IMG/VR virus record: IMGVR_UViG_3300017938_000095
Span: 1 to 22,784 of that record
Source: a virus
Length of the DNA stretch: 22,784 nt
Strand: one strand, 5' to 3'
In this document: piece after piece, positions 740 to 8,650 of the stretch
Numbering within the stretch: the stretch's first letter is position 1
Layout of the letters: each line of letters opens with the position of its first letter
The notes under the pieces: generated by a model
The model's input: the letters and a program-made list of their open reading frames with translations, nothing else
Told to the model about the DNA's origin: nothing
The model's database searches: none
Program-made: the position numbers and the translations under genes

Positions 740-811
740 TGCGGAATCTCCAGTGAGGAGCCGAGTCTCATAAGCTTGGATAGATCGGGGCAGCACCGTT
801 TTCCGCTACCA
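740..811 (+). tRNA. Candidate tRNA-Met (CAU), aberrant, initiator-like
   Basis: The acceptor GCGGAA/TTCCGC (741-746/801-806) closes the molecule, with a T1:T72 mismatch outside it, discriminator A and encoded CCA (809-811). The anticodon arm is CGAGT-CTCATAA-GCTTG, giving anticodon CAU. The variable loop has 5 nt and the T arm has a 7-nt loop. The D arm is about 4 nt short and lacks GG, and the T loop is GGCAGCA instead of TTCRANY. An unpaired 1:72 is an initiator hallmark. It may be a diverged initiator tRNA or a decayed gene. Confidence 0.5.
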
Positions 812-837: not shown

Positions 838-1343
838 ATGACAAAATAGTTGATATCATCAAAACCGTAGATGCTAAATCATTTAAACCACAAATTCTTA
901 TAACCTTTCAAGCTGATCTAGAACAACTACAAGACGATAAATCTACATATGGCGATAAAGCATATAACATGTTTGCTAAAGACCTCTTCAATAAAGTTGA
1001 TCTTTTTGAACCTGAACGCACACCTGGAATTGCCCTATATCATGTTGATATGCCAATAACAAGAGTAGAATATTTTACAAAATCTAACGACTCTTTTACT
1101 ATCAATTTACAAGCTGAGACTGCAAAATCAGACGATTTAAATCTGGAAAGGTTGTTCACTGAAATTGCTGGAGAGAATGCAGATATATTTTTGATGAGTA
1201 TTCGATCTGCTATAACAATTGATAACGATACCTTGAAAAGAAAAATGTATTATCTAGTTCGGTTTGCTTCTGTATCAGAAGAATTTAGAAAAGAGAAGAA
1301 TCTCAAAAAATGCATCAGCCACAGACAAAATGATTTTTTCTGA
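838..1343 (+). pseudogene. ORF of about 168 codons broken by a one-base loss near its start
   Basis: ATG at 838 has a good ribosome site (AAGGAG, 824-829) but reads only M-T-K before TAG at 847. The frame one base back is open from 843 to TGA at 1341-1343 and reads like a real protein from its first codons (I-V-D-I-I-K-T-V-D-A-K). One more A in the run 843-846 would join start and body into 168 residues. As it stands, the first in-frame ATG is at 969 (124 residues) without a clear ribosome site. Function unknown. It could be a real frameshift, an assembly error or slippage on the A run. Confidence 0.55.
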
Positions 1344-1352
1344 AAATAGTTG

Positions 1353-1381
1353 TTGACATTCAGCACGAAGTATGATAGACT
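1353..1381 (+). promoter_or_regulatory. Early (sigma70-type) promoter before the split tRNA
   Basis: TTGACA (1353-1358), 17 bp, then TAGACT (1376-1381). The predicted start near 1388 lies about 15 bases before the interrupted tRNA-Val and upstream of the RidA-like gene. The 17 bp spacer is the same as in the other promoters of this class in the window. Confidence 0.55.
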
Positions 1382-1402: not shown

Positions 1403-1606
1403 CAGAGGGTAGCTTAGTTTGGCTTAAAGCACTCGTCTATGTTCAGGTAACTAAAGATCGTTAACAATCGATAGTCAAATGAACATGGGGAATAAGATTA
1501 GTAAGAAAGAAGAAGCGTCATTTAGCTAGTGATAGGGACTCTGACCGAAAACTTTATTTCAATGACATGCGAGAGATCGGGGGTTCGAATCCTTCCCCTC
1601 TGACCA
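1403..1606 (+). tRNA. tRNA-Val (GAC) interrupted by about 125 nt in the anticodon loop
   Basis: Both ends form a normal tRNA. Acceptor CAGAGGG (1403-1409) pairs with CCCTCTG (1596-1602), then A and CCA. The D arm is GCTT/AAGC with GG in its loop. Anticodon stem CTCGT (1432-1436) pairs with GCGAG (1569-1573). The T arm has loop TTCGAAT. Between the anticodon stem strands lie 132 nt where 7 are expected. Removing 125 nt after U33 leaves loop CTGACAT, which reads GAC and closely resembles the E. coli tRNA-Val (GAC) loop. Without removal it cannot decode. Confidence 0.75.
1439..1563 (+). other. Insertion (putative small intron) inside tRNA-Val
   Basis: The ends are set by the anticodon loop and may be off by one base. 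The 5' part makes a long hairpin, CTATGTTCA (1437-1445) with TGAACATGG (1480-1488), whose U1438-G1487 wobble sits exactly at the proposed 5' junction, as in the P1 helix of group I introns. A second stem pairs GTCATT (1517-1522) with AATGAC (1561-1566). Only 125 nt long, with no final G and no recognisable P7 core, it is not a standard group I intron. There is no ORF inside. Confidence 0.5.
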
Positions 1607-1627: not shown

Positions 1628-2053
1628 GTGAAAACCAAAATTACAAATCTGAAAGTTTTGAATGAAGCGTACAATTATAAGAAACCATCGTCATTCAGCA
1701 GAGGAGTAAAAGTTTTTGTATCTCGACAACATTTCCTTTTTATCTCTGGTACAGCAAGTATAGATGAAAATGGAGAAAGTCTATATGTTGACGATTTCAG
1801 AAAACAAACAGAACGAGTATTTTACAATATCAAAAAGTTGCTTGCTACACAAAAAGCAACCTGGAACAATGTAGTAAAGACAACGATCTATATAAAAGAT
1901 ATTGCAAAACATTATGATGAATTCAACATCATAAGGAATGAGTTTTTTAGTAAAGAAGATATTCGTGTGTTGCCAGCTTCTGTATGTGTCCAGGCAGTTT
2001 TATGTAGGCCAGAATTGTTGATTGAAATGGAAGCAACGGCAATAGTATCATGA
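1628..2053 (+). CDS. RidA/YjgF/UK114-like protein
   Basis: 141 residues from GTG at 1628, behind AAAGGA. The chain matches the RidA (YjgF/YER057c/UK114) family: FISGTASIDENGE near 38, the central KTTIYIKDIAKHYDEFN near 83-99, and the C-terminal LCRPELLIEMEATAIV with the conserved arginine of the family site. RidA enzymes deaminate reactive enamine/imine intermediates made by PLP enzymes; other members have different roles. The family usually forms trimers in the cytosol. The stop overlaps the next start (ATGA at 2050), so the two genes are probably translated together. What a phage gains from it is unknown. Confidence 0.75.
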   Translation: MKTKITNLKVLNEAYNYKKPSSFSRGVKVFVSRQHFLFISGTASIDENGESLYVDDFRKQTERVFYNIKKLLATQKATWNNVVKTTIYIKDIAKHYDEFNIIRNEFFSKEDIRVLPASVCVQAVLCRPELLIEMEATAIVS

Positions 2054-2774: not shown

Positions 2775-3045
2775 GAGTTGCGCTCGACCCTGGTTTCCAT
2801 AACTGTATGTGTGTCATGTATAATATCCCTTTCCGTTATACAAGACCTGACAGGTAAATCCATCTCCTTGGAAAAATGAAGAGTCGCTTGCTCTTCTACG
2901 GAAACATTTTTTTGACAATTTAAAAGTTTTTTGTTTCCACAATTATAGAGTGTTTGATTTCGACTAAGGAACACTGAAAGTTAAAATGTGGGTATCGTTG
3001 ACGAACGAATACAATTCCATACAATAATTGAGATACCCATAAGGA
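2775..3045 (+). other. Non-coding stretch with inverted repeats
   Basis: No convincing gene on either strand. Hairpins are visible: ATAAC/GTTAT around 2802-2840; GAAGAG/CTCTTC around 2879-2897; GGAAACA/TGTTTCC around 2900-2940 enclosing T-rich sequence; and TGGGTATC/GATACCCA around 2987-3038. No tRNA or recognised RNA family could be fitted. Confidence 0.3.
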
Positions 3046-4945: not shown

Positions 4946-6448
4946 ATGGCATTCATTCCTTCAACACAGCAGAACAGATACTTCGGTTGGATAGTTAACG
5001 AAGACGGTTCTTGTGTTCTTGAAGCGGTTGCTGGATCAGGTAAAACAACTACTCTGATCGAAGGATTGAAGTTAATGTCTGGTGATATTTTCTTTGGTGC
5101 TTTCAACAAAGCTATTGCTCTTGAGATAACTGAAAAGGTTGCCAAACTCTGTCTCTCCAATGTCAGTGTCTCTACAATACACGCAGCAGGATTTGCTATC
5201 TGGAGAAAAGTTGCCAGGAACGTAGTTGTCGATAACAACAAATGCCGTGACATCTTTCGCAAAATTGCTGGTTATGACAAAGAAACCCACAAGCTCTGTA
5301 ATGCAGTTCTTTCGTTAGTATCTTATGCCAAACAAGCTGCTCTTGGTTATGACAGTGACGATATCTTTGCAGCTATCAAAAGCAATACTGCATGGGAACA
5401 GATGATCGATCATTACAATGTTGATTGTCTTGAAAGAGAAATAGAAGTAATTGCTCTTGCTAAAGAAGTTCTTTTAAAATCCAATATGTCTGTCTGCGAA
5501 CTGGTTGATTTTGATGACATGATCTATGCTCCTCTGATCAACAAAACAAAATGCCCGAAATACGATTGGGTTTTAATTGATGAAGCACAGGACACAAACG
5601 CTTCTCGCAGGGCTTTAGCTCTCATGATGCTCAAGGAAGGTGGCAGGTTGGTAGCAGTTGGTGATCGGCATCAGGCGATTTATGGTTTCACTGGTGCTGA
5701 TAGTGATGCTCTGGATATCATAGCTAAAGAAGTTTCAGCTATTCAGATTCCTCTGACTGTTTCTTATCGTTGCCCGAAAAGTATTGTTACCGAAGCACAG
5801 CAGTTTGTAAGCCATATTGAAGCTCACGAATCAGCTATAGAAGGTATCGTATCTCATCTTAATGATCATGACGATATTACACAGATAGCAAAAGTTGGTG
5901 ATGCGATTCTCTGCCGCTTCAATGCTCCGATAGTTGAACTTGTTTATAAGTTCATTGCAGCAGGAATTCCTGCTAAACTTGAAGGTCGGGAGATCGGCAA
6001 TAATCTTAAAGCTCTGGCTAAAAGGTGGAAGATCGTAACTCTGAATGCTCTTGAAAACAAACTGAGCGAGTATCGTGATCGTGAAGTCAAGAAAGCTCGT
6101 CTGAAAGAAGAAGAAGGTAAAGTAGTAGCAATCCAGGATAAAGTGACCTGCATGTTCATTCTGATTAATCGTGTACGGTCAATCAATTCTTCTGCTACCA
6201 TCGAAACACTTTGCACAGAGATTGATAACATTTTTGAAAACAACGTTGATAATGCAAAAGTTCTTCTTTCTACCATCCATAAATCAAAAGGTCGGGAATG
6301 GAAAAAGGTTTTTTGGATTCAGGGTTCTGCAACATGGGCAAAGAAGGATTGGGAAAAACAGTGTGAGAAGAATCTCTCATACGTAGCAATTACCAGATCA
6401 CAGGAACATCTGATATTTGTTCCTGCTCCTGCTAAAGAAAAACATTGA
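4946..6448 (+). CDS. UvrD/Rep-like superfamily 1 DNA helicase
   Basis: 500 residues, ATG at 4946 behind AAGGAG. All SF1A motifs are seen in order: Walker A AGSGKT (29-34), Ia GAFNKAIALE (51-60), motif II DEAQD (212-216), III GDRHQAIYGF (239-248), IV SYRCP (273-277), V STIHKSKGR (442-450) and VI YVAITRSQEHL (479-489). It is shorter than bacterial UvrD/Rep (about 670-720), with reduced inner subdomains, so it is a compact 3'-5' translocase probably used in phage replication or repair. Its TGA stop lies within the -35 box of the next promoter. Confidence 0.92.
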   Translation: MAFIPSTQQNRYFGWIVNEDGSCVLEAVAGSGKTTTLIEGLKLMSGDIFFGAFNKAIALEITEKVAKLCLSNVSVSTIHAAGFAIWRKVARNVVVDNNKCRDIFRKIAGYDKETHKLCNAVLSLVSYAKQAALGYDSDDIFAAIKSNTAWEQMIDHYNVDCLEREIEVIALAKEVLLKSNMSVCELVDFDDMIYAPLINKTKCPKYDWVLIDEAQDTNASRRALALMMLKEGGRLVAVGDRHQAIYGFTGADSDALDIIAKEVSAIQIPLTVSYRCPKSIVTEAQQFVSHIEAHESAIEGIVSHLNDHDDITQIAKVGDAILCRFNAPIVELVYKFIAAGIPAKLEGREIGNNLKALAKRWKIVTLNALENKLSEYRDREVKKARLKEEEGKVVAIQDKVTCMFILINRVRSINSSATIETLCTEIDNIFENNVDNAKVLLSTIHKSKGREWKKVFWIQGSATWAKKDWEKQCEKNLSYVAITRSQEHLIFVPAPAKEKH

Positions 6449-6473
6449 CAAAGAGTTTAAAGTGTGGTAGAAT
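6445..6473 (+). promoter_or_regulatory. Early promoter driving a protein-free RNA region
   Basis: TTGACA (6445-6450), 17 bp, TAGAAT (6468-6473). The -35 box contains the helicase stop codon. No protein gene follows for about 700 bases; only tRNA-like and other folded sequence does, so the promoter seems to serve RNA genes. Confidence 0.7.
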
Positions 6474-6492
6474 GATTTATAAGTTCTACCAC
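6464..6492 (+). promoter_or_regulatory. Operator-like inverted repeat over the -10 box
   Basis: GTGGTAGAA (6464-6472) and TTCTACCAC (6484-6492) are perfect 9 bp inverted repeats separated by 11 bp, spanning the -10 box and the transcript start. They could be a repressor site or a hairpin at the very 5' end of the RNA. No other promoter in the window has this repeat. Confidence 0.45.
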
Positions 6493-6576
6493 AGAAAGAT
6501 CAGGGTTGTTTGGGATCAGGACATAGCTTCTGAGGTCCAAACGTAAAAAGTCAACCAGACTTTTCCGAAGAGTTTA
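6493..6576 (+). other. Two hairpins at the head of the RNA-only transcript
   Basis: GTTTGG near 6508 pairs with CCAAAC near 6537, with TCAG/CTGA stacked inside. AAAAGTC-aacca-GACTTTT follows at about 6546-6564. There is no ORF with a ribosome site. This looks like a folded 5' leader of the tRNA-like cluster or a separate small RNA. Confidence 0.4.
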
Positions 6577-6736
6577 GTTATGTGTCATTGGCAATATGAC
6601 AATGTGGGAAGCTTGCAACTTCTGCGAATATTGAAAATGTGAACGGATCACGTAATTTTGGTAGATTGCCGCCTATTATGAAAATGATCATCGCCAGCTT
6701 TCAATATTGTTCCTAATTCAAACTTAGGGCATAACT
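6577..6736 (+). ncRNA. tRNA-like RNA with a giant variable arm (anticodon-like UGC)
   Basis: Acceptor GTTATGT (6577-6583) pairs with GCATAAC (6729-6735). D arm CATTG/CAATG. Anticodon arm GGAAG-CTTGCAA-CTTCT. T arm CCTAA-TTCAAAC-TTAGG. Between the anticodon and T arms lie 88 nt instead of about 5, closed by a perfect 10 bp stem, AATATTGAAA (6627-6636) with TTTCAATATT (6699-6708). No CCA is encoded and there is no G3-U70, so it may not be an alanine acceptor. Perhaps a tRNA with an insertion, or a tRNA-shaped small RNA. Confidence 0.6.
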
Positions 6737-6791
6737 TTAAAAGTTTTGTAGCAAGATGAAAATGAGATAATGTATCGATGATTATGAAGTA

Positions 6792-6861
6792 GTGTCTGTA
6801 GCTCAGTTGGCAGGAGCACCTGCGAGAGCAGGGTGTCGGTGGTTCGAGTCCATCCATTCAT
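6792..6861 (+). ncRNA. tRNA-like RNA with a GNRA tetraloop in place of the anticodon loop
   Basis: T8, A9, D arm GCTC-AGTTGGCAG-GAGC and T arm GGTGG-TTCGAGT-CCATC are textbook. The arm between them is CCTGC-GAGA-GCAGG, five perfect pairs closed by GAGA, a GNRA tetraloop, so three loop bases including the anticodon are missing. The acceptor GTGTCTG/CATTCAT pairs at only 5 of 7 positions; ATGAA just upstream (6784-6788) pairs better with TTCAT. It cannot decode as written. A decayed tRNA or a tRNA mimic. Confidence 0.55.
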
Positions 6862-6928
6862 GAAAAGTAATTACTTACAAATTTCTGAAGATACTAGGAA
6901 CTTCTATATCTTGCTACAAACCGGATTT

Positions 6929-7020
6929 CCCAGGATACTTCCTAAACCTTGGCCGGGAAAGGAGAAAGTTCATTTGATTGGCGTGGTTAAAATGTTGGTT
7001 CGAGTCCAACTCCTGGGCCA
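6929..7020 (+). ncRNA. tRNA-like RNA: acceptor, T arm and CCA without an anticodon arm
   Basis: CCCAGGA (6929-6935) pairs with TCCTGGG (7011-7017), followed directly by CCA. T arm GTTGG-TTCGAGT-CCAAC is perfect. The 58 nt between contain no 5 bp/7 nt anticodon arm in any register that I tested; they fold better as rods (ACTT/AAGT with CCT/AGG, or AACC/GGTT with GCC/GGC). The layout recalls the tRNA-like domain of tmRNA or viral tRNA-like structures in miniature, or a rearranged tRNA. Confidence 0.5.
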
Positions 7021-7026
7021 GTAATT

Positions 7027-7149
7027 AACCAATTCGTTTAAGGGTAAGACTTCCTTCATAGGGTAACTGATCCGTTCAATTCGGCCTCTCGTAAGAGAGT
7101 ATGGTAAGTGTACACCGGGAAATAGTAAGTTCGAATCTTCTATTGGTTA
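7027..7149 (+). ncRNA. tRNA-like RNA of 123 nt with an internal insertion
   Basis: TTAACCAAT (7025-7033) pairs with ATTGGTTAA (7142-7150), nine perfect pairs. D arm GTTT-AAGGGTA-AGAC and T loop TTCGAAT fit a tRNA. The part between is about 48 nt too long, contains a second T-loop-like TTCAATT (7075-7081) and a hairpin CTCTC-GTAA-GAGAG (7086-7099) with a GNRA loop, and no clean anticodon arm. It may be two fused tRNA remnants or an inserted tRNA. It starts 6 bases after the CCA of the previous element. Confidence 0.5.
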
Positions 7150-7833: not shown

Positions 7834-7869
7834 AAACCCCTTGTGATGATCAGTTACAAGGGGTTTTTT
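7834..7869 (+). terminator. Rho-independent terminator
   Basis: ACCCCTTGT (7836-7844) pairs with ACAAGGGGT (7856-7864), followed by a run of Ts (7864-7869). A weaker hairpin, AATCTAA/TTAGATT, precedes it at about 7803-7824. Confidence 0.85.
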
Positions 7870-7875
7870 ATTACG

Positions 7876-7951
7876 GAGCTATCTTAATAAGTGGTTAATT
7901 GACAAGACCTTCAATCTTGGGATATCGGTTCGATCCCGATACACAATACCA
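7876..7951 (+). tRNA. tRNA-Glu (UUC) with unpaired acceptor stem, possibly defective
   Basis: D arm TAAT-AAGTGGTTA-ATTG, anticodon arm CAAGA-CCTTCAA-TCTTG (UUC), T arm ATCGG-TTCGATC-CCGAT, discriminator A and CCA are all good. The 3' acceptor strand ACACAAT needs about ATTGTGT opposite, but the 5' position holds GAGCTAT, which does not pair. The terminator of the mini-ORF cassette ends only 6 bases before, so the 5' strand was probably overwritten. Position 33 is C, not U. Confidence 0.6.
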
Positions 7952-8573: not shown

Positions 8574-8650
8574 GTGACAGAATGCAAAGTGGAGGAGCAG
8601 ACTGACCGTGACTCAGTTGATAGTGGTTTCAACGTCCACCTGTCACACCA
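8574..8650 (+). tRNA. tRNA-His (GUG)
   Basis: Acceptor GTGACAG/CTGTCAC, A, CCA, with an extra G just upstream (8573) where G-1 of histidine tRNAs would be. D stem TGC/GCA, anticodon arm ACTGA-CCGTGAC-TCAGT gives GUG. T stem has one mismatch, loop TTCAACG. Position 33 is C instead of U, and discriminator A instead of the usual C. Confidence 0.7.

Follow-up and report, generated by a model that had tools for sequence, protein, structure and literature searches.

A split tRNA-Val(GAC) gene in a phage genome fragment

The window (the whole stretch of DNA that was analysed, 22,784 bases) is an IMG/VR virus record and constitutes a genome fragment; 22.8 kb of this phage are known. The source is a T4-like phage with a contractile tail. 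The genes present encode gp19-like and other tail tube proteins, baseplate proteins, UvrD- and RecD/Dda-like helicases, homing-type endonucleases (HNH and GIY-YIG), and at least 15 ordinary tRNAs (ARAGORN without introns). Megablast of the window against 50,697 phage records gave no match. The nearest relatives found are contig L002 (UvrD, 95%) and short contigs with a tail tube gene 89–100% identical, and the tRNA cluster is highly variable from relative to relative.

With introns of 0–300 nt allowed, ARAGORN reports a tRNA-Val(gac) at [1403,1606] with an intron of 125 nt (cgtct-Intron-gacat). Without introns the program misses this gene, and the Rfam tRNA model leaves it undetected. In 100 shuffles of the window, ARAGORN returned neither a tRNA with an intron nor a plain tRNA. 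The initial annotation had described complete tRNA arms with 125 nt between U33 and G34, and the program and the shuffles bear this out. Identical nucleotides at its two edges (U1438 and U1563) leave the position of the cut uncertain by one base: the insert lies at 33/34 or at 32/33, and both give an identical product.

The joined exons amount to 79 nt and form a standard cloverleaf (ARAGORN score 120), with seven of seven Watson–Crick pairs in the acceptor stem, a 4-bp D stem, a 5-bp anticodon stem (one U–G pair), and a 5-bp T stem with TTCGAAT; CCA is encoded. The anticodon loop is then CUGACAU, as had been read from the DNA (CTGACAT). Around the junction, the joined sequence is CTCGTCTGACATGCGAG and that of the precursor CTCGTCTATGTTCAGG. 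Since the joined exons make a textbook cloverleaf, both halves belong to a single tRNA gene. As generally expected of a tRNA intron, removal of the insert leaves an intact tRNA with a canonical anticodon loop. The region 1403–1606 is a real split tRNA gene. In the unspliced RNA, forcing the cloverleaf gives –47.1 versus –51.0 kcal/mol for the minimum free energy fold, a cost of 3.9 kcal/mol.

A promoter-like site, TTGACA-17-TAGACT with an extended TG, ends 21 bases 5′ of the gene (Table 1); it is only suggestive because shuffles yield about one such site per region. A terminator scan between the tRNA and the downstream RidA-like gene found none.

Table 1. Coordinates of the split tRNA-Val locus (positions in the window) and of the interrupted tRNA genes in other phages
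Feature	Coordinates	Strand	Basis
sigma-70-like promoter	1353..1381	+	Consensus scan, 10/12 positions
tRNA-Val 5′ exon: acceptor 5′ strand, D arm, anticodon stem 5′ strand, C32 U33	1403..1438	+	ARAGORN intron mode
Insert (putative intron), U33/G34, one-base ambiguity	1439..1563	+	ARAGORN; without Rfam match or homologue
Insert 5′ hairpin: AUGUUCA (1439–1445) with UGAACAU (1480–1486), extended by exon 1436–1438 with GGG 1487–1489	1439..1486	+	RNA folds
Insert 3′ part, 77 nt, without recognisable core, T-arm or domain V	1487..1563	+	Rfam search, folds
tRNA-Val 3′ exon: anticodon GAC, A37 U38, anticodon stem 3′ strand, variable loop, T arm, acceptor 3′ strand, CCA	1564..1606	+	ARAGORN
RidA/YjgF-like protein gene, 3′ of tRNA-Val	1628..2053	+	Pfam PF01042, E = 4e-25
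Split tRNAs of Atu_ph07 (L160, L163, L164)	MF403008 68159..68280, 323905..324023, 335108..335213	-	
Nested-tRNA loci, L177	3330..3481 and 2870..3008		
Nested-tRNA locus, L195		-	
Nested-tRNA locus, L237	1359..1515		
Nested-tRNA locus, L217			

Other tRNA-like features of the window

At 740–811 (plus strand) lies a tRNA-Met-like gene with a CAT anticodon and an encoded CCA, missed by both ARAGORN and Rfam; its T-loop is GGCAGCA, not TTCRANN. A GGCAGYA T-loop recurs in L059 (3372–3445, Val UAC-like), and the mini-tRNAs enclosed by the tRNA-Leu genes of L177 and L195 have it too. The variant T-loop pattern has five matches (one of them GGCAGAA, in L240) versus one in shuffled sequence, and GGCAGYA possibly marks a variant class of phage tRNAs. 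Neither program calls the tRNA-His-like gene at 8574–8650, with a GTG anticodon and, at position 33, C in place of U.

Two further stretches, 7027–7148 and 7866–7951, are tRNA-like and degenerate or interrupted: they show AACCAAT...ATTGGTT flanking an internal T-arm, and a TTC anticodon arm plus a T arm for which no acceptor strand matches. An apparently non-coding block at 6434–7017, preceded by a promoter-like site (TTGACA-17-TAGAAT), corresponds to 4394–4982 of L002 at 89% identity. It contains a tRNA-like fold (6792–6862) whose anticodon arm is tipped by a GNRA tetraloop (GAGA; GGAA in L002), and the block may be a larger structured RNA.

Structure of the insert and comparison with known intron types

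The 5′ junction is spanned by a helix of 10 contiguous pairs (1436–1438 with 1487–1489, then 1439–1445 with 1480–1486) that includes the pair U1438–G1487. The U–G wobble at the junction, noted initially as resembling P1 of group I introns, is therefore present as described; the helix, then given as 9 bp, is one pair longer. Such a helix is weak evidence, since one of at least 10 bp spans the junction in 2% of dinucleotide shuffles (P ~0.02). For the 7-bp helix counted from the first base of the insert, P = 0.06 against shuffles. At the 3′ junction, GUCAUU and AAUGAC can pair over 6 bp, a chance-like result (P = 0.46). Folded alone, the insert is no better than its shuffles (z = –0.31).

The region 1350–1660 (311 nt) was searched against Rfam with lax filters down to E≤10, and neither group I (RF00028) nor any group II family gave a match. 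A match to snoR442, whose 21.8 bits fall short of the cut-off of 50, was rejected as chance. The negative result for group I carries weight because the same library detected the group I intron, 204 nt long, that interrupts tRNA-Leu(UAA) of phage contig L190 (50.2 bits, E 3e-10). That locus (983–1186, minus strand) is a finding in its own right, a true group I intron (RF00028) within a phage tRNA-Leu(UAA); the phage group I introns known to a review of 2014 were in protein genes only (PMC3984707).

Other features agree with the first reading of the insert as undersized for group I, without a final G and without a core. It ends in CAAU or CAA, and shifting the cut so that it ends on G1564 leaves either a 6-nt loop or an AAC anticodon with A replacing U at the 5′ site. 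After the 5′ hairpin, about 75 nt are available for a core, and small phage group I introns measure about 200 nt (average 206; PMC12363816). The introns of bacterial tRNAs (tRNA-Leu UAA, including that of L190) also interrupt the anticodon loop and have a helix with a U–G pair at the 5′ site, of which the weakly supported junction helix here may be a counterpart, but they are at least ~200 nt long and have a conserved core, a final G and an RF00028 match, all of which the Val insert lacks. A group I intron is unlikely.

Hallmarks of group II are also missing: Rfam gives no domain V at E≤10, and the insert starts with AUGUUC, not GUGYG. The two junctions are not linked by any significant helix of the bulge-helix-bulge kind, and a search of eight related contigs gave no RtcB.

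Search for relatives of the insert

Among phage records the insert has no homologue (a single match, at E = 5). Three exact stretches from the insert or the exons were not found in IMG/VR contigs, nor was a fourth in species genomes, and protein-anchored searches gave no relatives of the locus. A distant search with the tail tube protein led mostly to short marine contigs. On the tail-tube relatives L039–L047 (89–100% identical at that gene), there is no split Val among the tRNAs found. Homology of the insert with the insert-like part of 7027–7148 is not significant (119 of 500 shuffles score as well), and neither is that with the insert-like part of L002. At the sensitivities used the insert has no relatives, so the locus stands as single-copy evidence and conservation cannot be used.

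Anticodon-loop inserts in other large phages

In contig L002, the anticodon loop of one tRNA is interrupted by 45 nt, and the gene nevertheless scores 33 bits with the Rfam tRNA model. When the Rfam tRNA model was run on the Lak phages, Atu_ph07, XacN1 and phage G, overlong matches occurred in Atu_ph07 and Lak. In the cultured Agrobacterium phage Atu_ph07, three tRNAs (54–57 Rfam bits) bear inserts: tRNA-Lys (48 nt), tRNA-Tyr (~46–48 nt) and tRNA-Met (~34 nt; labelled Ser by ARAGORN). Joining of the Lys exons would give the loop CTTTTAA, flanked by TCTGC and GCAGA as the two halves of the stem. The Lys and Tyr loci are without annotation in the record, and introns are unmentioned in the paper on this phage (PMC6102473). 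Like the Val insert, these are non-group-I and sit in strong tRNAs of a large phage; they differ in being shorter (~34–48 nt), and that of tRNA-Tyr includes both a T-arm and a stem resembling an acceptor.

In Lak megaphages, short inserts in the anticodon loops of tRNAs, several of them after U33, have been termed enigmatic, and one of the introns was predicted to contain a tRNA (Devoto et al. 2019, PMC6784885). No mechanism is given in that 2019 report, and we found no later proposal; our literature searches on tRNA introns and nested tRNAs of phages led to the Lak papers only. We extracted Lak introns from tRNA-Ala and tRNA-Ser/Tyr. Interruption of a tRNA gene in its anticodon loop after U33 (33/34) is common to the Lak tRNA-Ala, the Lak-like intron in the tRNA-Val(AAC) of L264, and the Val insert (there with one ambiguous cut base). 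Once aligned, seven Lak-type inserts show the same elements: a hairpin on the 5′ side, a linker rich in A, and a T-arm adjoining the 3′ junction; the Val insert has neither the A-rich linker nor the T-arm at the 3′ junction. The model built from these seven (R1) tests sequence and T-arm but not the whole fold, since its computed structure is the T-arm alone; with it, the Lak-type introns used or recovered score 42–80 bits. On the Val locus the best score is 9 bits, placed on the 3′ exon of the outer tRNA and outside the insert, which does not assign it to the Lak type.

In two other insert-bearing tRNAs (G006 346–511 and G010 41100–41226) the loop boundaries could not be fixed. Some intron calls by ARAGORN are chimaeras of neighbouring tRNAs, as in L058, where a tRNA-Pro (ggg) is drawn around a nested tRNA-Gln; these were not counted.

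tRNAs nested within tRNAs

IMG/VR was searched with a pattern of two T-arms 20–50 nt apart; this selects for two T-arms, and the matches listed serve as examples and give no rate. Among them, several tRNAs plainly enclose another tRNA. In L177, the outer tRNA-Glu(UUC), ACACCGCC-CUUUC^AC-GGCGGU, is interrupted by a complete tRNA with CCA, and the tRNA-Leu(UAA), CUU^AAAA, by a mini-tRNA; the same arrangement is seen in the tRNA-Leu of L195. The tRNA-Gln(UUG) of L237 also has a nested insert, and the tRNA-Arg(UCU) of L217 holds a tRNA-Phe. In all five, the acceptor stem of the inner element starts at base 1 of the insert (6–7 of 7 pairs), and a 4-nt tail separates it from the 3′ exon (NCCA in four of the five, ACCC in L217).

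The Val insert resembles these flush nested tRNAs in having a stem that begins at the first insert base in the anticodon loop. However, their stems close 4 bases before the 3′ exon, whereas the Val stem closes 77 nt early and a T-loop is absent; a 7-bp stem drawn to close 4 nt before the 3′ exon would have 4/7 pairs in Val. In resemblance, the Val insert falls among the anticodon-loop inserts of phages; in membership, it belongs to neither definable class, Lak-type or flush nested.

Because the inserted tRNA-like elements are flush at the 5′ end and have a 4-nt tail at the 3′ end, they suggest excision by tRNA end-processing enzymes, followed by sealing with a phage RNA ligase. Cleavage by RNase P and 3′ processing at the normal ends of an inner tRNA would leave a 3′-OH and a 5′-phosphate on the exons, which are substrates of T4-type RNA ligases. 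The PF09414 RNA_ligase domain is found in nine of the nine large phage records tested, and the T4 RNA ligase 1 domain in four of nine; in Atu_ph07, a PF09414 gene lies ~1.1 kb from the split tRNA-Lys. It is equally simple to suppose that the flush ends are those of mature tRNAs once ligated into cut anticodon loops; this explains the origin of the inserts, not their removal, and both readings can hold together.

Interpretation of the Val insert

We give about an even chance to the Val insert being one of the enigmatic phage tRNA introns, short, non-group-I and so far unique, alongside those of Lak, Atu_ph07 and L002, with its removal at the RNA level inferred. We list in support the intact exons, the canonical loop obtained on removal, the modest 3.9 kcal/mol, the promoter-like site, the inserts in the relative L002 and in other phages, the five flush tRNA-like inserts, the ligases, and the lack of RtcB in eight related contigs. 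Against it stand an insert without homologue or intron-less allele that fits neither the Lak type nor the flush nested type, weak junction helices, and the degenerate look of other tRNAs in the window. A new type of intron, one of the options raised initially, gains support because other phages have non-group-I inserts in anticodon loops, but the Val insert itself remains without homologue. The death of the tRNA, another of these options, stays in play owing to this lack of a homologue and to those degenerate tRNAs. According to it, a recent insertion killed the gene and left a young pseudogene, which being young would still look intact. The absence of any relative wherever searched, the lack of significant structure, the decayed appearance of 7027–7148 and 7866–7951, and the variability of the tRNA cluster among relatives all favour this. 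Nevertheless, the exons are fully intact, the insert falls precisely in the anticodon loop, where intact tRNAs of other phages are independently interrupted too, and the promoter-like site is kept; we regard a dead gene as rather unlikely, though it is the main rival.

If the insert were a decayed nested tRNA or tRNA-like element, derived from the inserts in which one tRNA lies inside another, this would account for the shared loop and for the 7-bp acceptor-like stem from base 1; in addition, GGTAACTA followed by a hairpin occurs, by eye, also in the Tyr insert of Atu_ph07. The missing T-loop, a stem closing at 1486 rather than at the 3′ junction, and the insignificant likeness to 7027–7148 make such a descent quite improbable. 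The very reduced group I intron proposed initially fares worse. A remnant of this kind, perhaps dependent on a protein or on a core in trans, would fit the U–G pair in the 10-bp junction helix, and L190 demonstrates that a phage tRNA-Leu can hold a group I intron. Yet the 311 nt gave no Rfam match despite the working control, the final G is absent, and the remaining ~75 nt are too few for P3–P8 when small phage examples reach ~200 nt (PMC12363816), so that we consider it very unlikely. An intron of the bulge-helix-bulge type, excised by an archaeal-type splicing endonuclease with RtcB as the ligase, is hardly credible: such introns usually sit in the anticodon loop and GUCAUU of the insert can pair with AAU-GAC over the 3′ junction, but that helix is chance-like, the start and end of the insert are unpaired with each other, and the eight related contigs yielded no RtcB. 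An endonuclease of this type is not known from bacteria.

If the Val insert is indeed a phage tRNA intron, the tRNA-Val(GAC) precursor would be transcribed and the insert removed from it by cutting and ligation, without self-splicing. The cloverleaf of the precursor would bring the exons together; nucleases would cut at both junctions in the loop, after which U33 and G34 would be rejoined by an RNA ligase such as phages use to repair cut anticodon loops. The likely cutters of the flush nested inserts would be RNase P on the 5′ side and the tRNA 3′-processing enzymes on the other. A broader proposal, which we consider improbable as a whole, is that large phages splice tRNAs neither by a ribozyme nor by the archaeal route: anticodon-loop inserts, typically tRNA-like, would be cut by end-processing enzymes and a phage ligase would seal the exons, with Val as a diverged case that uses a different cutter.

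Introns in bacterial tRNAs have so far been explained mainly by group I ribozymes. Phages may use some tRNA splicing route that nobody has worked out. The wider pattern of anticodon-loop inserts in phages is a more valuable result than the Val case. If large phages widely have short anticodon-loop inserts of more than one structural type, some of these inserts being whole tRNAs flush with processing sites, a concrete model follows, with RNase P, 3′ processing and RNA ligase, and Atu_ph07 is a cultured phage in which it can be tested. Were the flush nested inserts excised in this way, the clearest of these genes would each yield two tRNAs, and the anticodon-loop RNA ligases of phages would gain a second job besides the repair of damage inflicted by defence.
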